NCBI RefSeq assembly: GCF_900182695.1
Contig: NZ_FXTK01000003.1
Location: 124,001-188,000 of the forward strand
DNA: 64,000 bases
Direction of reading: 5' to 3'
From: Paracoccus laeviglucosivorans
Lineage (GTDB): Bacteria; Pseudomonadota; Alphaproteobacteria; Rhodobacterales; Rhodobacteraceae
Part shown: positions 22,897-31,317 of the stretch, piece after piece
Layout of the letters: each line of letters opens with the position of its first letter
Numbering within the stretch: position 1 is the first letter of the stretch
Position numbers and translations under genes: made by a program
Notes under the pieces: generated by a model
The model's database searches: none
Told to the model about the DNA's origin: nothing
What the model saw: only the letters and a program-made list of their open reading frames with translations

Positions 22897-24030
22897 TCAG
22901 CGCGTGGCGAAGCGCGCCTTGATCCGACCCATCCATTCGTCGCGCCTTAGCCATAGCGCGGCCGAGACCCAGAGCGCCGCGATGACCCAGATATCAATGG
23001 CAAGCCGCAGAAGAAAGCCCGTGAAATCCTGCGGAGCCATCATGTCCATCGCATCGCCCCAGATCGACAGCAGAACACAGCTTATGAAGGACCAAAGCCC
23101 GCCGCGACCAATTTCGCCGAATGCACGACCAATTGCCGTGTTCGCCATCCATTCGAATGGTTTGGCCAAAGGCACCGCGACCAGCCAGCTGGCCGCCATG
23201 ATCGCCATCAGCCGCAGCCCGTCCAGCGACCATTTGTCGATCGAGCCATAGACCATTTTCAGGGCGGCGCTGACGGCCTTGGCAGGCTCACCGATGCGCC
23301 ATGCCAGCGTGACCGACAGGCAGAACAGCAGCACCCCGACCGAGGCGATGGTCAGCACCTGCCCATGCTTGCGCAACGCAGGCACGATCTGGCGCCGGAA
23401 CGCGCCCAAGCCTACGCCGATAAAGAACAAAAGCTGCCAGCCGAACGGATTGAACAGCAGACCCGGACCGGGGCGCTGGTTGGGGATCAGCGCGTTCAGC
23501 GGCTCGGCGCACAGCCACACGGTGACGGAAACCGCCATCGCGGCAAAGGGCGCGCGCAGCAGGAAGGGCACGGTGATCGGCGCAGTCACCAGCATGATGA
23601 CATAAAGCGCAAGCACATCCAGCAGGTTCGGCTGCATCCACATCAGCCCCACCGTGGCGATATAGCCCGCCGGGTTTTCGAACAGCCACAGCGCGTATTT
23701 GAACCAGACGGCGGTGTGGTTCAGCTTTATCTCGAACAGGAAATGCGAGAATGCGGCCAGCAGCACCGCGCCCAGAACCAGCGCCAGCCACACCTCATAG
23801 GCGCGTTTCAGAAAACGCCATTGGGCGGCGCGGCGGCCATGCTTGGCCTCGACCTTGACCCAGACCATGCCGACCAGAAAGCCCGACAGCAGGACGAACA
23901 GTTCGGCCGCGTCGAAGACCGTGAAATTCGCCAGCGTCACGTTGCGCAGCACGCCGATCGGCATGTGGTCCACCATGATGCAGACCAGCGCGTAACCGCG
24001 CAGCATGTCCAGCGCCATGATCCGCTTCAT
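22897..24030 (-). CDS. opgC: OpgC-family membrane acyltransferase (glucan succinyl transferase)
   Basis: 377 residues with about ten hydrophobic segments. [20 protein letters not shown] at the N-terminus and the [19 protein letters not shown] segment identify the OpgC family, membrane proteins that add succinyl groups to osmoregulated periplasmic glucans. The start overlaps the opgH stop by four bases (ATGA), tying it to glucan synthesis. The assigned acyl group is by family analogy. Confidence 0.9.
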
Positions 24031-26198
24031 TTGGGCAGCTTCGCGAAGGTATCCACCAGACCGCGATCCTCAAGCATGGCCAGTTTTTCCGCTTCGGTCA
24101 GGAAGCTCAGCGCCTCGCCCTGCGTGGCGGAATGGGCCAGTTTCGCCTCGGCCGAGATGGCGTCCAGACGACCAGCGGCGGGACCGCGCGGCGCACCGCC
24201 CCGCAAAAGCGAGGCGACGCGCGCCTGCATCGCCGGATCGCGACCCATGGCAGCGATCCCGTCACGCGGCAGCGTGGCCGCGATGCGGTAGCTTAGCGCG
24301 TTTGCGGCGGCCAGAATTTCGGGGGCATCGCGTTCCTCGGGCGTGACAAGCAGGCCCTGACGACGCGCCCAGCGACCAAAGACCGGGCTTGCCGACCAGC
24401 GCGAGGTCATGGGCGACAGGATCAGCCCCGCAAGAATGGGCGACAGCCAGACCAGCTGCCCCGGCGAAAAGATCGCCAGCACGATCAGCGTGCCAAGTCC
24501 CAGCAGGACATGGCGCGAATGGCGGCGCAATACGGTGGACCACGGCGGCATCTGGCCTGCCCGGACCTGCGCCTCCCACCCGGAATCGCGTCCGCGCAGG
24601 ATGTCAAAGATCTGGCGGCTTTGGATCAGCATCTGCACCGGTGCGATCAGCGCCGACAGCACGATCTCGAAGATGGCCGAGGCAAGCAGCCGCACCGGAC
24701 CGCCCGAATTCCGCGCCAAGGGCCGCGCCCAAGCCCGGAAGATGCTGATGAATTTCGGCACCAGCAGGAACGACATGGCGGCCACGAACAGCCACAGCAT
24801 CCGCACGGGGTCGAAGACCGGCCATTCGGGGAAAAGCTGATAGGTCTGGGGGAAATAATCCGGGCGTGACAGCAGCACATTGGCCGACAGCGCCAGACCG
24901 ACAAGGATCATCGCCAACCAGATCGGCGACATCAGGAAGCCAAGGATGCCGATGATGAAATGCGCGCGGTTGGTCCATGTGAAGCCGCGCGAAAAGATCA
25001 GGCGGGCATGTTGCAGGTTGCCCTGCGCCCAGCGACGTTCGCGCACGGCCATGTCCAGAAGCGTGGGCGGGCTGCCCTCGAAACTGTCGCGCAGGTCGTG
25101 ATCCAGCCGCACTTTCCAGCCGGCACGGCGCAGCAGCGCGGCCTCGACGAAGTCATGGCTCAGGATGTGGCCGCCAAAGGGGGCGCGGCCCGGAAATTCT
25201 GGCAAACCGCAGCATTGCGCGAAAGCGGCGACCCGGATCAGCGCGTTATGACCCCAGAAATTGCCGCTATTGCCCGACCAGGCCGCGACGCCACGGGCAA
25301 TCGCCGGACCGTAGATGCGGCCCGCGAACTGCGTCAGCCGCGCAAAGATCGACTGCCCGCCGACCAACATCGGCATGGTCTGCAAAAGCCCGATGGCAGG
25401 ATCGGCATTCATCCGTGCCGAAAGCGCCTTGATCGTGGACGCGCCGACCACGCTGTCGGCATCCAGCACGACCATCTGTTCATAGCGCCCACCCCAACGC
25501 ATGACGAAATCGGCGACATTGCCCGCCTTGCGGCCTTTGTTGCTTTGACGGCGACGATACCACACCGGCACCGGAGATATGTCGCGCAACCGGCTGATTG
25601 CCAACATTTCTTCAAAGACCGGACCGGGCTTGCGGCTGTCGGACAGCACGAAAATCTCGGTCCTGTCGCCCAGACCCACGCGGTAAAGGTCACGCGCCAA
25701 AGCAGCCAGCAGACCCGCAGTGGCCGCGCTGTCTTCGTTATAGACCGGCATGATGACCGCGATGCGGGCATTGTTCGGGCCTTTGGGCGTCTCGATCCGC
25801 GGGGCCAGAAATCCCGCGATCATCGAGGCGAAGGAAAAGCCGACCCAGGTGAAGGTGATACAGAAAAAGACCAGCAGCACGGTTTGCAGGAACGTCACGT
25901 CCGGCCCGAAAACCTCGCTCATCTGGCGATAGCCGATCCATGCGATCGTGCCTGCGCCGCCAAAGGCGATCAGGCGGGCCAGCATGGTGCGGATGCTGGG
26001 CCAGCCCGCATCGGGCCCCACCGGGGGGCGCCCGCGCAGGTTCTGCTCGGGCATGTCCAAAGGTTGCTCGGGCGGCGTTGCGGGGCCACCCGGCAGCTCA
26101 ATGTCCAGCGCGTCCCACGCAGCCTCGCTTGACAGCGGCAGCGAAGGCCGGTCCGCGGGCGGGTCTTGCGGCTGATGCGTCGGTTCGATTTCGGTCAC
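24027..26198 (-). CDS. opgH: glucans biosynthesis glucosyltransferase OpgH (MdoH)
   Basis: Inner-membrane GT2 enzyme that polymerises UDP-glucose into the backbone of osmoregulated periplasmic glucans. 723 residues: a soluble Pro-rich N-terminus (1-65), two hydrophobic segments (about 70-130), the catalytic domain (about 145-400) with MVVLDADSVVG near residue 245, HDFVEAALLRRAGW and the ERRWAQGNLQH acceptor motif, then further membrane segments to about 620 and a C-terminal tail. It begins four bases after opgG and overlaps opgC. It is shorter than the 850-residue enterobacterial enzyme, as is common in alphaproteobacteria. Confidence 0.95.
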   Translation of the reverse strand: MTEIEPTHQPQDPPADRPSLPLSSEAAWDALDIELPGGPATPPEQPLDMPEQNLRGRPPVGPDAGWPSIRTMLARLIAFGGAGTIAWIGYRQMSEVFGPDVTFLQTVLLVFFCITFTWVGFSFASMIAGFLAPRIETPKGPNNARIAVIMPVYNEDSAATAGLLAALARDLYRVGLGDRTEIFVLSDSRKPGPVFEEMLAISRLRDISPVPVWYRRRQSNKGRKAGNVADFVMRWGGRYEQMVVLDADSVVGASTIKALSARMNADPAIGLLQTMPMLVGGQSIFARLTQFAGRIYGPAIARGVAAWSGNSGNFWGHNALIRVAAFAQCCGLPEFPGRAPFGGHILSHDFVEAALLRRAGWKVRLDHDLRDSFEGSPPTLLDMAVRERRWAQGNLQHARLIFSRGFTWTNRAHFIIGILGFLMSPIWLAMILVGLALSANVLLSRPDYFPQTYQLFPEWPVFDPVRMLWLFVAAMSFLLVPKFISIFRAWARPLARNSGGPVRLLASAIFEIVLSALIAPVQMLIQSRQIFDILRGRDSGWEAQVRAGQMPPWSTVLRRHSRHVLLGLGTLIVLAIFSPGQLVWLSPILAGLILSPMTSRWSASPVFGRWARRQGLLVTPEERDAPEILAAANALSYRIAATLPRDGIAAMGRDPAMQARVASLLRGGAPRGPAAGRLDAISAEAKLAHSATQGEALSFLTEAEKLAMLEDRGLVDTFAKLPK

Positions 26199-26202
26199 GT
26201 CT

Positions 26203-27783
26203 TCACTCGCGCGTCCAGCGTGCGATCCAACTTTCGCTTAGCGGGCCTTCCGGTCCATTCAGAACCGCCGAAAGGTCCGCAAGTTTCGCCCCTTCGGGAA
26301 GATATTCGAAGGCAAGCCGCATTCTGCCCTGATCGGGCAGGCGCAGCAGGTAGCTGTGGCCGATATTGCCCGACGACGCCTTGATCTGCGGCACCGGATC
26401 GTCCGGCCCGAACAGGTCAAGGTCGTAGTCGATGACATAGGTGCGCGATGCCGGATTGTTCACCGCCAGACCCGACATGGTTTCGACCACGCGGGCAATG
26501 GGGGCGCTGTCCGGCGGTTCGGGCGCGAAGCTTAGCATATAGTTGAAATCATAGCGGTTGCCGGGCCGCAGCGGGTCGGCGGGCTGCCAGAACGACACGA
26601 TATTGTCGTTGAATTCGTTCTGCACCGGGATTTCGACCAATGAGACGGTGCCCTTGCCCCAGCCGTCCTGCGGCGCGATCCACGCCGAGGGGCGTTTTTC
26701 ATACCGCGCCTCGGCGTCCTGATAGGCGTCGAAGCTGCGGGCACGCTGCGCAAGGCCGAAGCCCAGCGGATCCTGATCCATGAATGCCGAGGTCTGCAGC
26801 GTCGAATGGCCCGAAAGCACGCGCCACAGCCGCTGTTCGCCGCCGTTCAGCATCTGCAGCCCGTCGCTGTCATGGACCGCGGGGCGGTAATCATCGACCC
26901 GCGTGCGGTCGGTCGGGCCGAACCAATACATCGAGGTCAGCGGCGCGATGCCCACAGTGGTCATTTCCTGACGCGGGAACAACGTCACACGGGTGTCGAA
27001 CACGGTTTCCGCGCCGGGGGTGATGCGGAATTCGAACGCCCCGGAAACCGAGCGGCTGTCCAGAAGCGCATGGATCATCACATAGCGATCCTGCGGATTG
27101 GGCTTGTGGATCCAGAAGCCCCGGAACAGCGGGAATTCCTCGCCCTCGGGGCTGCCGGTGCCGATGGCCAGACCACGGGCTGAAACGCCGTAAAGCGTTC
27201 CACGGGCCACGCCACGGAAATAGCTGGCACCCTGGAACACCAGAAATTCGTCCATGACATCGGGCCGGTTCAGGGGCGCACGCAAGCGAAAGCCCGAAAA
27301 GCCCATATTGCCGATAGTGTCGTAATCGACGCCATCGGGGAACTGTGCCGGGTCGAATTCGAACATATGCGGGTCGAACTTGACCGGGATCACCACGCCA
27401 TTATCGACAAGGCTTATATCGACCGGCTCATGAAAGATCGCACCCGGCGGCAGCAGGTCCAGCGCGAAATCGCGGCTGCCAACCCAGGGATCGCGGTCGC
27501 GGCGGAACCGGATGCCGCGATACTGGTCATAGGTCAGGTTGCCGAAACTGCCGACCAGATCGGCATCCCGGTAAGCATAGGCGCGCGAGGAAAGATCCTG
27601 CGCCATGGCCACAACATCGTCAAAACCAAAAGGCTTTGCGGGCTGCGCCTCGGGCTGGCCCTCGGGCGCAGCGGGTGGCGTGGCGGGCGCCTCTTGGGCA
27701 AGGGCCGAACCAACTCCCAACGACAGGGCACTTGCGGCACTAAGCGCCGCCCCGGCTGAGATCACGAATTCACGACGATGCAT
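26203..27783 (-). CDS. opgG: glucan biosynthesis protein OpgG/OpgD
   Basis: Periplasmic protein needed for backbone branching or release of osmoregulated glucans. 526 residues. The N-terminus MHRREFVISAGAALSAASAL is a twin-arginine-type signal, a feature seen in OpgD more than in OpgG; cleavage after ALA at about residue 29. Typical segments are QYRGIRFRRDRDPW, ASYFRGVARGTLYGVSARGLAI and LTSMYWFGPTDRTRVDDYRPAVHDSDGL-like sequence. First gene of opgGHC. A perfect palindrome lies 90 bp upstream. Confidence 0.93.
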   Translation of the reverse strand: MHRREFVISAGAALSAASALSLGVGSALAQEAPATPPAAPEGQPEAQPAKPFGFDDVVAMAQDLSSRAYAYRDADLVGSFGNLTYDQYRGIRFRRDRDPWVGSRDFALDLLPPGAIFHEPVDISLVDNGVVIPVKFDPHMFEFDPAQFPDGVDYDTIGNMGFSGFRLRAPLNRPDVMDEFLVFQGASYFRGVARGTLYGVSARGLAIGTGSPEGEEFPLFRGFWIHKPNPQDRYVMIHALLDSRSVSGAFEFRITPGAETVFDTRVTLFPRQEMTTVGIAPLTSMYWFGPTDRTRVDDYRPAVHDSDGLQMLNGGEQRLWRVLSGHSTLQTSAFMDQDPLGFGLAQRARSFDAYQDAEARYEKRPSAWIAPQDGWGKGTVSLVEIPVQNEFNDNIVSFWQPADPLRPGNRYDFNYMLSFAPEPPDSAPIARVVETMSGLAVNNPASRTYVIDYDLDLFGPDDPVPQIKASSGNIGHSYLLRLPDQGRMRLAFEYLPEGAKLADLSAVLNGPEGPLSESWIARWTRE

Positions 27784-27889: not shown

Positions 27890-27919
27890 ATAGTTGATCG
27901 AATTTTCGCAAAGAAGAAA

Positions 27920-27944
27920 GGGGCACGACATCAAGTCGCGCCCC
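27920..27944 (-). terminator. intrinsic terminator of the PepSY-like gene
   Basis: Arms GGGGCACGAC (27920-27929) and GTCGCGCCCC (27935-27944) with one mismatch. On the minus strand the stem is followed by CTTTCTTCTTTG. It lies 22 bases past the stop of the gene at 27966-28799. Confidence 0.75.
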
Positions 27945-27965
27945 TGTGACCATGTTCAGCGGAAA

Positions 27966-28799
27966 TCAGCGGTTGAGTTCGCGCAGAACCTTGCCGTCAA
28001 CGCCCAGTTCGACCAGCACCGGCTCTCCCTCGGGGTTGGTGGCCTGCGCGACGGTCACATGACCCTGCTGCAGGATTTCACCGATCGCGGTATAGCCCGC
28101 GCCGGTCAGGCTGGCGCGCACATCGTCGGGCGAAGGCGCAGGGCCACGGGGACCATCGCCGCGCGGACCGTCGCCACGGGGGCCGTGATCGCCGCGATGT
28201 TCGCGGTCGCCATGCGGCTTGCCATGCTTGCCGCCCCGGTCATCGCCGTGACGGCCCCGATGTTCACCCTTGTCGCGGCCCATATGGCCCATGCCCGGTC
28301 CGCGATCGTCATCGCCACGGCCAAAGCGCAGCAGGGTGCCGTCCTCGGAAAACACCGCGCGAACAGGGTTTGACTGCGCGTCGGTGCCCGCCATCATGAT
28401 GCCGCGACCGCCCATGAAGACCGCCTTGATCTGGCCCAGTTCGCCATAGATCGCCTGATCGCGGACGGCCTGCGGCACCAGCCGCTCGACCAGAGGCTGC
28501 GGCAGAACCGCGTCCTCACCAGCAGCGCGCAGACCGCGCAGCTGACCCGCATCATCAAGGAAGGCGCTGACGGTGGCATCGTTGATCTTGCCTTCGACCC
28601 GCATTCCGTGGCGCGTGGATCTGCCCACGGCCTCGGTCATGCCGGCATCGCGCAGCACCTGCGGCAGATCGACCGGGGCCGCCTCGGCGTGGCCCGCTGC
28701 GGGCGGGGCGGCCTCATGCGCTTCTTGCGCCGCAAGCGGGCTTGCCAGCATCGCGATCAGCGCGCCTGCCGCCACCGTCGAGGAAAGAAATCTGCTCAT
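27966..28799 (-). CDS. secreted PepSY-like protein with a His/Asp/Arg/Gly-rich tract
   Basis: 277 residues with a signal peptide (cleavage near residue 24, PLAA/QEAH). Not a named family that I recognise. The C-terminal 55 residues (from PSPDDVRASLTGAGY to the end) resemble a PepSY repeat: an alpha-helix, a beta hairpin and the closing VELGVDGKVLREL. Residues 40-95 look like a second, weaker copy. Between them, about residues 160-223, is a low-complexity hydrophilic tract dominated by H, D, G, R and K, with spaced histidines and acidic residues that could bind metal. It is divergent from the PepSY-regulator-kinase operon, with a compound operator between, so it is probably a target of that regulator. 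Periplasmic metal or envelope-stress sensing is speculation. Confidence 0.7.
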   Translation of the reverse strand: MSRFLSSTVAAGALIAMLASPLAAQEAHEAAPPAAGHAEAAPVDLPQVLRDAGMTEAVGRSTRHGMRVEGKINDATVSAFLDDAGQLRGLRAAGEDAVLPQPLVERLVPQAVRDQAIYGELGQIKAVFMGGRGIMMAGTDAQSNPVRAVFSEDGTLLRFGRGDDDRGPGMGHMGRDKGEHRGRHGDDRGGKHGKPHGDREHRGDHGPRGDGPRGDGPRGPAPSPDDVRASLTGAGYTAIGEILQQGHVTVAQATNPEGEPVLVELGVDGKVLRELNR

Positions 28800-28871
28800 G
28801 TCTGGTTTCCTTGCTTCGTCATCATTCGGGGCACGCTTGGCCCCATGAGAATCATCCCTACATCACCTGTC

Positions 28872-28911
28872 ACCAACCGAATTCCAACGGGCCGTTTGGT
28901 ATCCGTTTGGT
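28872..28911. promoter_or_regulatory. compound operator: four half-sites in a 40-bp imperfect palindrome
   Basis: Two direct copies of CCGTTTGGT (28892-28900 and 28903-28911) with an 11-base period are mirrored by two inverted, degenerate copies (ACCAACCGA 28872-28880 and TCCAACGGG 28883-28891), also 11 bases apart. Fifteen of 20 positions match across the centre. Tandem sites one helical turn apart are the usual target of OmpR/PhoB-type regulators, and one is encoded 450 bp downstream. The site lies between the divergent genes starting at 28799 and 28935, so it could control both. Confidence 0.65.
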
Positions 28912-28934
28912 TTCGCGGCATTAGAAATAGCGTC

Positions 28935-29351
28935 ATGACCCAGTTCCATCGGCCTAAAATCATGATGCGCGCGGCCCTGTGCCTGGGGCTGGCGCTGGCG
29001 ATCGCGCTGGCCCTGCATCGCGCACCGATGGCACAGCCGCGCGATATGGACGCGTTGCCGGACGATGATGCGTTCGGAATGCTGGCCGATCCCGGTTTCC
29101 GCGTCATTCCCCTGCACGAAGCGGCCAAGATCGCCGGTCAACGCTTCCGGGGCCGCCTGATCGCCGCCCGCCTTGCCCCCCCGCATCAGGACGAGCATGC
29201 CCGCGGGGTCGAACTGGTGCATGAGTTGCGCCTGATGACCAAGCGGCGCAATGTGCTGCTGATCCGGCTGGACGCGCGCACCGGGGATTTTCTTGAAGTG
29301 GCGGGCGCCGGCCTGACCGAGGCGCGCCGCCGGGACGGAGACAGCGAATGA
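28935..29351 (+). CDS. small membrane-anchored PepSY-domain protein
   Basis: 138 residues from ATG 28935; the longer open frame upstream runs through the operator region and is not coding. A hydrophobic segment at about residues 12-28 is a signal or anchor. The rest (about residues 55-130: GFRVIPLHEAAKIAGQRF, then ELRLMTKRRNVLLIRLDARTGDFLEV) is one PepSY domain, with the typical helix and RLDARTG turn. The last four bases overlap the response-regulator start (ATGA). PepSY proteins next to two-component systems often modulate the kinase from the periplasm; FeuN beside FeuPQ in rhizobia is a comparable arrangement. That role is inferred. Confidence 0.8.
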   Translation: MTQFHRPKIMMRAALCLGLALAIALALHRAPMAQPRDMDALPDDDAFGMLADPGFRVIPLHEAAKIAGQRFRGRLIAARLAPPHQDEHARGVELVHELRLMTKRRNVLLIRLDARTGDFLEVAGAGLTEARRRDGDSE

Positions 29352-30010
29352 AATGCCTGATCGTCGAGGATGATCCGGTTCTGGCCGGACAGCTTTCTCG
29401 GGCCATGAATGATGGCGGTTTCGCCTGTGACATCGCGCATGACGGCATACAGGGCGAATATCTGGGCGCAACGGAAAGCTATGCGCTGTCGATCCTTGAC
29501 CTTGGCCTGCCCGGATTGCCGGGGATCGAGGTGCTGACCCGCTGGCGCGACGGGGGCGTGACCATGCCCGTCCTGATCCTGACCGCGCGGGGCGACTGGA
29601 CCGACAAGGTTGCCGGTTTTCGGGCGGGGGCCGATGATTACGCTGTCAAACCCTTTCGCCTTGAGGAGGTGGTCATCCGTGCCCAGACGCTGGTGCGCCG
29701 CGCCGCCGGTCATGCGCAGGCGGTCATCAAAGCCGGACCCTTGCGGCTGGACAGCCAGCTTGGCGTCATCACCCGCAACGGCATGGCGCTGAAACTGACG
29801 GGATTTGAAACCCGAATCCTGTCCTATCTGATCCACCATCAGAACCGCATCGTCAGCCGCACAGAACTGTCGGACCATCTTTACGACGCGGCTGCCGACC
29901 GCGACTTCAAGTCGATCGAGGTGGTCATCGGTCGCCTGCGCAAAAAGATCGGCGAAGGGCTGATCGAAACCCGTCGCGGCGAAGGCTACATCCTGCGGGC
30001 CGACGGTTGA
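29348..30010 (+). CDS. OmpR/PhoP-family response regulator
   Basis: 220 residues: receiver domain (about 1-115) with Asp8/Asp9, phospho-acceptor Asp51 in ILDLGLPG, Thr79 and Lys101; then a winged-helix DNA-binding domain (about 125-218) with LTGFETRILSYLIHHQNRIVS and the recognition region VVIGRLRKKIG, ending RRGEGYIL. Resembles the PhoP/FeuP/ChvI group. Coupled upstream to the PepSY gene (ATGA) and downstream to the kinase (TTGA). Likely binds the tandem CCGTTTGGT repeats at 28872-28911 and so may autoregulate. Confidence 0.94.
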   Translation: MKCLIVEDDPVLAGQLSRAMNDGGFACDIAHDGIQGEYLGATESYALSILDLGLPGLPGIEVLTRWRDGGVTMPVLILTARGDWTDKVAGFRAGADDYAVKPFRLEEVVIRAQTLVRRAAGHAQAVIKAGPLRLDSQLGVITRNGMALKLTGFETRILSYLIHHQNRIVSRTELSDHLYDAAADRDFKSIEVVIGRLRKKIGEGLIETRRGEGYILRADG

Positions 30011-31317
30011 GATTTCCCGATTCGATACGGGCGCGGCTGATTGGCCTTTCCGCCCTGCTGATCGGTGTCGCGCTGGTCGCGGGCTATCTGGCGATTGCGG
30101 CGATCCTTGACCAGTTCATCACCGACCGTTTCGACGCCGAGGCCGAGGCGGTGGCCGATGCCCTGATCGCCGGGGCCAGCATCGACGCCGAAGGACGGCT
30201 GGTCGCAGGCCCTGCCCCCAGCGATCCGCATTTCGACATTCCCCTGTCGGGTTGGTTCTGGCAGTTGACGCAGGATGGCGTCGTCGTCGCGAAATCCCCC
30301 TCGCTTTTCGACAATGTGCTGAACGCGCCGGATGCAGATTTCATCGGCGGGCGCGGCCTTGGTCCTGCGGACGAGCCGCTGCGCGTCACGCGCCACGATT
30401 TCACGCTGCCCGATACCCGATCGGCATTGGCCGTTATCGTCACCGCTCCGGGGGCCGAAATCGACGCAAGCCTGTCCCGCCTGCGCCGCCCATTGGCGAT
30501 TTCGCTGACCGTGCTGGGTCTGGCGCTGGCGGCGGCCAGCGTGCTGCAGGTCGCGGCAGGTCTGCGCAGTCTGGACAAGCTGGGCCGTGACCTGCGCGCC
30601 ATCCGCGCGGGCCGGGCCGAGGCGCTGCCCCTGCCCCCGGTGTCGGAGCTGCGCCCCATGGCCGCCGAGATCAACGGGCTTCTGGAACAGAACCGCGCCG
30701 TCCTTGCACGCTCGCGCGAGCATGTGGGCAATCTGGCCCATTCGCTGAAAACCCCGCTGGCCGCGCTGGATAACAGCCTGCCCCCCGACCATCCCGGTCA
30801 CGCGCTGGTCGCCCGGATGGACCGCCAGATCGGCTGGCACCTGCGCCGCGCCCGCAGTTCCGGTGCGCCGCGCGTGCTGGGGCATCGCACGCTGCTGGCC
30901 CCGGTCGTCGATGACATCCTGATGGTCCTGCGCGGCCCGATCCGCGATTCCGGCATCCGCGTCGATCTGGATCTGCCCCCCGCAGCGTCCTTTGCCGGCG
31001 AGCGGCAGGATCTTGAGGAGATGATCGGCAACCTTGTCGAAAACGCCGTGAAATGGTCGGGCGGACGCATTCTGATCCATGCATGGGCACAGGTCGATGC
31101 GCTGCGCATCACGATTGCCGATGACGGCCCCGGCCTCAGCGACGAAGATCATGCCATCGCGATGGCACGCGGCGGGCGTCTGGACGAAACCGGCCCGCCC
31201 GGCTCGGGCCTTGGGCTGGCCATCGTGGCGGATATTGCCGCGCTGCATGGCGGGCGGCTGCGGCTGGAACGGGCGGAAATCGGCGGACTTGCGGCGACGC
31301 TGGAACTGCCTGCCTAG
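30007..31317 (+). CDS. sensor histidine kinase partner of the PepSY operon
   Basis: 436 residues, starting at TTG 30007 that overlaps the regulator stop. Two membrane helices (about residues 10-32 and 160-185) flank a periplasmic sensor of about 125 residues. The H-box reads HVGNLAHSLKTPLAALDN, with phospho-acceptor His245. The LAHSLKTPL form rather than HELRTPL is typical of PhoQ/FeuQ-like kinases. ATPase motifs are NLVENAVKW (N), DDGPGLS (G1) and GSGLGLAIV (G2). The signal is unknown; neighbouring opg genes and PepSY proteins hint at envelope or osmotic status. Confidence 0.93.
   Translation: MRFPDSIRARLIGLSALLIGVALVAGYLAIAAILDQFITDRFDAEAEAVADALIAGASIDAEGRLVAGPAPSDPHFDIPLSGWFWQLTQDGVVVAKSPSLFDNVLNAPDADFIGGRGLGPADEPLRVTRHDFTLPDTRSALAVIVTAPGAEIDASLSRLRRPLAISLTVLGLALAAASVLQVAAGLRSLDKLGRDLRAIRAGRAEALPLPPVSELRPMAAEINGLLEQNRAVLARSREHVGNLAHSLKTPLAALDNSLPPDHPGHALVARMDRQIGWHLRRARSSGAPRVLGHRTLLAPVVDDILMVLRGPIRDSGIRVDLDLPPAASFAGERQDLEEMIGNLVENAVKWSGGRILIHAWAQVDALRITIADDGPGLSDEDHAIAMARGGRLDETGPPGSGLGLAIVADIAALHGGRLRLERAEIGGLAATLELPA

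Follow-up and report, generated by a model that had tools for sequence, protein, structure and literature searches.

The 64,000-nucleotide stretch of Paracoccus laeviglucosivorans DNA analysed here (contig NZ_FXTK01000003.1, positions 124,001 to 188,000; hereafter the window) carries a 40-bp dyad at positions 28872 to 28911, between a gene for a predicted exported protein with several PepSY-like folds and an operon for a small PepSY-type protein, a response regulator and a histidine kinase. We propose, with a probability of about 0.8, that through this dyad a two-component system with PepSY proteins regulates its own expression, and that the dyad is an operator shared by two back-to-back promoters. 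The phosphorylated regulator encoded next to it would bind each arm as a head-to-tail dimer, in place of a -35 element, and would from there activate transcription both ways, into the PepSY-regulator-kinase operon and into the gene of the exported multi-PepSY protein. The sensor would thus rise together with its regulator and its periplasmic modulators, which would provide feedback through the PepSY proteins. More weakly, we infer contact between the two dimers across the centre, which would make both promoters switch as one unit; this dimer-dimer contact is the least certain part of the mechanism.

Structure and conservation of the operator

The forward arm (28892-28911, plus strand) reads CCGTTTGGT-AT-CCGTTTGGT, i.e., two exact nonamers at 28892-28900 and 28903-28911 which lie 11 bp apart, as a sequence-only reading of this DNA had described; no other exact copy of the nonamer is present in the window. 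The two inverted, degenerate copies at the same spacing which that reading had also reported lie at 28872-28880 and 28883-28891, and by hand count they have 2 and 3 mismatches to the nonamer. Despite this degeneracy they share the minus-strand core GTTGG-N6-GTTGG (28873-28888), which forms the reverse arm. The pentamers of the forward arm are GTTTG at 28894-28898 and 28905-28909, the putative tandem box of the PepSY-regulator-kinase promoter, and those of the reverse arm are found on the minus strand at 28884-28888 and 28873-28877, the putative tandem box of the divergent promoter. In each arm the two half-sites form a direct repeat with an 11-bp period, which is the layout of a tandem operator of OmpR/PhoB type. 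The cores of the four half-sites are spaced 11-9-11 bp about a dyad centre at 28891, where 9 bp separate the starts of the inner AA and TT cores, and the whole dyad lies upstream of both presumed transcription starts.

Conservation was analysed across the best 80 of 100 relatives of the regulator (79 named Paracoccus, one Rhodobacter), with the rows anchored on the forward arm only. One locus whose contig starts too close was skipped (L064), and after omission of a mis-anchored row (L071, in which the operator was seen by eye), two duplicates (L016 and L026) and 9 rows of at least 85% identity, 68 non-redundant rows were left, window included. The sequence-only reading had named absence of the motif from orthologous intergenic regions as grounds for its own rejection; instead, none of the 68 rows departs from the AA/TT core in any of the four half-sites. 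This holds for the TT cores of the anchoring forward arm (28895-96 and 28906-07) and equally for the AA cores of the reverse arm (28875-76 and 28886-87), and no row has an indel between the arms. As neither the reverse arm nor the -10-like element beyond it served as an anchor, their conservation is not an artefact of the alignment.

When each arm was scored with the matrix of the other, the words of the two arms proved to be related but not identical, with swapped-matrix medians of 10.7 bits (forward) and 8.7 bits (reverse) against 28.3 and 24.0 bits with each arm's own matrix. Across species the forward arm holds GTTTGG-type words and the reverse arm GTTGGC/GTTCGG-type words. These differing words may mean that the strengths of the two promoters are unequal by design.

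A single nonamer is ordinary in the window (14 matches at up to one mismatch vs 12.2 expected). Under matrices derived from 76 orthologue rows, window left out, the forward arm scores 28.3 bits, with a runner-up in the 64 kb of 11.9, and the reverse arm 16.9 bits, which ranks first of 127,966 scored positions, barely above the 16.6 bits at 27705. The latter near-match, which lies inside opgG (27705-27722), was put down to chance, since it is not kept across the 20 loci that have opgG. The mirrored pair as a whole reaches 45.1 bits; the next score, 11.2, comes from reading that place on the opposite strand, and elsewhere nothing exceeds 5.6. A scan of this genome for CCGTTTGGT-AT-CCGTTTGGT with up to three mismatches, which had been suggested for defining the regulon, returned the operator as its single place (control, one place). 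With the degenerate arm pattern at up to one mismatch 6 places were found (control 4), the operator being the sole exact match, and with a looser pattern at up to two mismatches 113 places (control 87), for which reason weak sites are not separable from chance.

Candidate promoters and translation start

A -10-like element stands at 28922-28927 on the plus strand (TAGAAA) and a second one at 28855-28860 on the minus strand, which reads TAGGGA in the window and is of TAGAAG type in many relatives. Throughout the 68 rows the two elements occupy mirror positions, with each arm ending 12 bp before its own element. The divergent element has T in 68/68 and A in 67/68 rows at 28859-28860, and the forward element has A at 28923 in 64/68 and T at 28922 in 40/68 rows. 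This placement fits the earlier suggestion that the operator controls both directions, although a sigma-70 consensus scan flags no promoter here. Just downstream of the divergent -10 a further block (28847-28853) is GATTCGT-like on the minus strand in relatives and GATTCTC in the window; it is moderately conserved (A at 28850 in 61/68 rows, neighbours less) and does not share the phase of the half-sites.

The small PepSY-type gene has its start codon 7 nt past the forward -10-like element, and in 70/80 rows this codon is 41-43 nt from operator column 0. A Shine-Dalgarno-like sequence precedes this gene in 6/79 rows and the first candidate start of the divergent gene in 50/78. Because the start comes directly after the -10-like element and a Shine-Dalgarno-like sequence is so rare, the PepSY-regulator-kinase mRNA is probably leaderless.

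Distribution of sites in Paracoccus

A strict arm pattern was searched in 61 Paracoccus genomes and matched 48 places in 38 genomes (control 8). By position relative to the kinase gene, 41 of the 48 are this operator, in 35 genomes; strong sites are thus nearly confined to it. A wide regulon of strong sites was rejected, the seven places away from the locus being about as many as the control matches (8). At E <= 1e-60 no close orthologue of the kinase was found outside Paracoccus: two of 199 genomes of the family matched, and both are Paracoccus; the one Rhodobacter locus had come with the relatives of the regulator.

Three of the seven off-locus places precede a gene for cytochrome b561. When 36 upstream regions of b561 genes were scored, the six closest homologues gave 13.1-26.0 bits vs a shuffle 99% level of 11.6; three of these six had started the lead and three are independent of it. 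Only one of the remaining 30 regions (L198) exceeds 11.6 bits, and its site is on the opposite strand. Each b561 region with a site has one strong arm, and one of the six genes (behind L176) contains an internal stop codon. On this evidence cytochrome b561 is likely to be a second target in six other species; neither of the two b561 homologues of the window's own genome (L201 and L206) has a site.

Mirrored operators with other words

Of the 198 genera of the family, 31 have relatives of the kinase. Twenty such loci were fetched and 13 of their upstream regions, all from more distant relatives, were read by eye: seven had a mirrored pair composed of other words. An 11-bp repeat with at least 7 of 8 bases was present in 9/13 of these regions vs 15/500 shuffles. 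Search words taken from the same 13 regions define two further classes. CTGAY-N6-CTGAY-N7-RTCAG-N6-RTCAG, with up to one mismatch, matched 15 places in 12/199 genomes of the family, and TGAAC-N7-GAAC-N5-GTTC-N7-GTTCA matched 36 places in 31/389 genomes of the class, with a control of 0 for each. For the latter (TGAAC/GTTCA) class 30 of the 36 places were fetched as loci, which makes 45 fetched loci in both classes. A regulator or kinase homologue was found in the same 2-3 kb stretch in 12/15 CTGAC/GTCAG and 23/30 TGAAC/GTTCA loci, vs 1/28 chance loci, all of them drawn from the window's genome.

With the centre spacing left free (1-20 or 1-16 bp), 12 of 13 CTGAC/GTCAG places had 7 bp and one 17 (control 0), although 5 of these 13 come from the genomes that first revealed the layout. 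Similarly, 14 of 15 TGAAC/GTTCA places had 5 bp and one 6 (control 0); here the words drew also on earlier fixed-spacing matches, and several of the 15 places share a genus or genome. Hand alignment on TGA/TCA brings these two classes into one register, and all three word classes fall into one register in the same manner. The regulator gene faces away from the site in 29 loci, 22 of which have a small gene directly before it (22/45 of all fetched loci; 10 CTGAC/GTCAG and 12 TGAAC/GTTCA), and in 19 of these 22 operons an in-frame start lies 22-27 nt after the last pentamer. Pfam searches of 18 proteins, picked by hand from the loci of both classes and with L142 included, showed that the genes facing other-word sites include those for PepSY_2, BOF, RTX-repeat, 17-kDa antigen-like, cytochrome b561 and carbonic anhydrase proteins. 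That the mirrored layout recurs in other letters next to related sensor systems, if only in a minority of other alphaproteobacteria, suggests that these systems have a two-way switch in common.

The window's genome itself has a mirrored CTGAC/GTCAG operator on contig 2 (94129-94167; L216), which belongs to a second PepSY-regulator-kinase system and has a gene for an RTX calcium-binding repeat protein as its divergent gene. A further CTGAC/GTCAG site with one mismatch is present on the same contig (199660-199698; L222), 16 nt before the first start of a carbonic anhydrase open reading frame, and no regulator homologue was found in the stretch fetched around it. In two other loci, from two genera (L220 and L221), a cytochrome b561 fused to a dihaem cytochrome c domain adjoins mirrored CTGAC/GTCAG sites, one exact and one with a mismatch.

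Genes around the operator

The first gene of the forward operon (28935-29351, plus strand) encodes a 138-residue protein which by eye is predicted to be exported. Its own sequence has no Pfam hit, and 24/39 orthologues match PF03413 (PepSY) at E <= 0.1, the best at 1.2e-7. Its structure model (pLDDT 86.6) has YpmB (2gu3) as its best PDB match at E 0.015, with none at E <= 0.001. It is followed by the OmpR/PhoB-type response regulator (29348-30010, plus strand; PF00072 and PF00486), which we presume to be the binder, and by a PhoQ-like histidine kinase (30007-31317, plus strand; PF02518), the presumed membrane sensor. The nearest NCBIfam models of the regulator are both below cut-off (PmrA 178 of 330 bits, PhoP 177 of 336), as is the best model of the kinase (PhoQ, 122 bits vs 497), so that the pair does not qualify as a PhoPQ or PmrAB equivalogue. 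Judged through its orthologues, the small predicted-exported PepSY protein encoded together with a regulator and a kinase makes this a PepSY two-component module.

The divergent gene (27966-28799, minus strand) encodes a 277-residue protein, also predicted by eye to be exported, whose structure model has three PepSY-like folds. It too has no Pfam hit of its own, and 16/29 orthologues match PF13670 (PepSY_2) at E <= 0.1, the best at 1.8e-8. The PepSY naming of both flanking proteins by the earlier reading is upheld in this way, through orthologues and not through Pfam hits of their own. A relative of the divergent protein is present in 78/80 loci, and in the other two the contig starts close upstream. 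A long linker rich in His, Asp, Gly and Arg, with low model confidence, lies between its PepSY-like folds.

Behind the divergent gene and before opgG there is an intrinsic-terminator-like hairpin (27919-27945, minus strand) of 11 pairs followed by a T-rich tail, which is weak when taken alone (one found vs 0.9 expected from shuffles). The genes opgG and opgH (24027-27783), for periplasmic glucan synthesis, adjoin the divergent gene; opgG was assigned by PF04349 and opgH by position and eye. That opgGH belong to the divergent operon was considered and rejected: opgG stands beside the divergent gene in 20/80 loci, a count to which about ten loci with a short upstream flank could not contribute, and the hairpin lies between.

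Discussion

The features described above support the earlier interpretation overall; for the cooperation of two dimers the support is only indirect and comes from two other word classes, in which the centre spacing is fixed. The tandem box as such is already known; the part for which no description was found in the open-access literature searched is the mirrored operator pair with a fixed spacing.

Among the closest known systems is BqsRS/CarRS of Pseudomonas aeruginosa. BqsR is an activator with a pentamer-N6-pentamer tandem operator (TTAAG) which needs its 6-bp spacer; its downstream pentamer overlaps the -35, and the tandem box alone drives the promoter (PMC4682146). Operator clusters in one promoter region are described in the available part of that report, whereas a fixed mirrored pair is not. 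In FeuNPQ of Sinorhizobium meliloti the half-sites of the candidate FeuP motif TTCA-N7-TTCA are 11 bp apart, as in the operator studied here (PMC3616915, PMC12486126), and the word of that motif is the one of the mirrored TGAAC/GTTCA class. It is not found at this operator, which has GTTTG-N6-GTTTG, i.e., the word GTTTG in place of GTTCA, and the available excerpts mention no mirrored pair for FeuP. DbfQRS of Vibrio cholerae resembles our system in gene order, the gene of its small PepSY protein coming before those of regulator and kinase. It has been suggested to activate its own expression, and modules of this kind are reported to be widespread, in some cases with PepSY encoded on the opposite strand (PMC12714742). 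Binding of DbfQ to its kinase has been shown there, and the available text gives no operator geometry for DbfQRS. Finally, the operon of PreA/PreB (QseBC) in Salmonella and Escherichia coli is activated by PreA itself, which also activates ygiW next to it and a cytochrome b561 (PMC2653508). The promoters are arranged differently, since in Salmonella transcription of preAB was mapped to a start within ygiW and that of ygiW to one within preA (PMC2653508). The activating role that we assume for the regulator fits these systems, because BqsR, DbfR and PreA, in the accounts available, act that way.

Several observations weigh against a single shared operator. A sigma-70 consensus scan recognises neither promoter, and the window's divergent -10 reads TAGGGA. 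The reverse arm of the window is weaker than the forward arm (16.9 vs 28.3 bits) and exceeds the next-best place of the window only narrowly. In 26 of the 61 Paracoccus genomes the strict arm pattern has no match at the operator, which may reflect degeneracy or absence. Of the 13 upstream regions from distant relatives, five have only a tandem repeat and one has none, and in E. coli the similarly divergent ygiW-qseB region has a single CTTAA-N6-CTTAA arm. The paralogous system in the same genome, with its other word, makes cross-talk possible. As for the contact across the centre, a fixed centre spacing could come from the packing of promoters instead of from dimer contact, and the words of the free-spacing scans were learned from sites which already had the common spacing.

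The alternative that survives these comparisons best is that two independent tandem boxes lie back to back, with each dimer serving its own promoter and with no interaction across the centre. Each arm indeed has its own -10-like element at equal distance, the arm words differ, b561 regions make do with one strong arm each, and a BqsR tandem box drives a promoter alone (PMC4682146, as far as that report was available). Set against this is the retention of one centre spacing in 12/13 and 14/15 places when the centre was left free, together with the single register into which hand alignment brings three word classes. We regard independent boxes as possible but rather doubtful. It is unlikely that the dyad represses, with regulator bound across the centre blocking both promoters: the boxes do sit at both presumed -35 positions, where bound protein could block the polymerase, but this is also the position of the activating BqsR site, whose downstream pentamer overlaps the -35 (PMC4682146), and in the accounts available DbfR (PMC12714742) and PreA (PMC2653508) activate their own operons, PreA also ygiW. 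Still less probable is the binding of another regulator, for instance that of a paralogous system in the same genome. A candidate exists in the second PepSY-regulator-kinase system with its mirrored operator, but the word of that operator is CTGAC/GTCAG and not GTTTGG, and 41/48 strong GTTTGG-type places lie beside the system described here. Chance repeats in a GC-rich intergenic region, for which only the ordinary frequency of single nonamers speaks, can practically be dismissed given conservation in 68/68 rows and a mirrored pair that scores far above any other place in the window.

The reading that we prefer remains a shared, autoregulatory operator, and it may extend beyond Paracoccus. Tentatively, and at slightly less than even odds, the fixed mirrored operator of four half-sites (11-9-11 bp) would be a general unit of alphaproteobacterial PepSY two-component systems, in which the words change while the spacing, the -10 position and the leaderless start stay, because two regulator dimers would form one complex that fires both promoters together. 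The arrangement suggests that exported PepSY proteins, which in relatives are thought to be modulators of the sensor, are wired into the sensor's own promoter. The mirrored operator provides a mark, readable from sequence, of one kind of PepSY two-component system, and as such may aid in finding targets. If the two arms do act as one unit, this would be a simple promoter for two directions, with a constant geometry and an evolving recognition word, and a useful case for the study of co-divergence between regulators and their sites.
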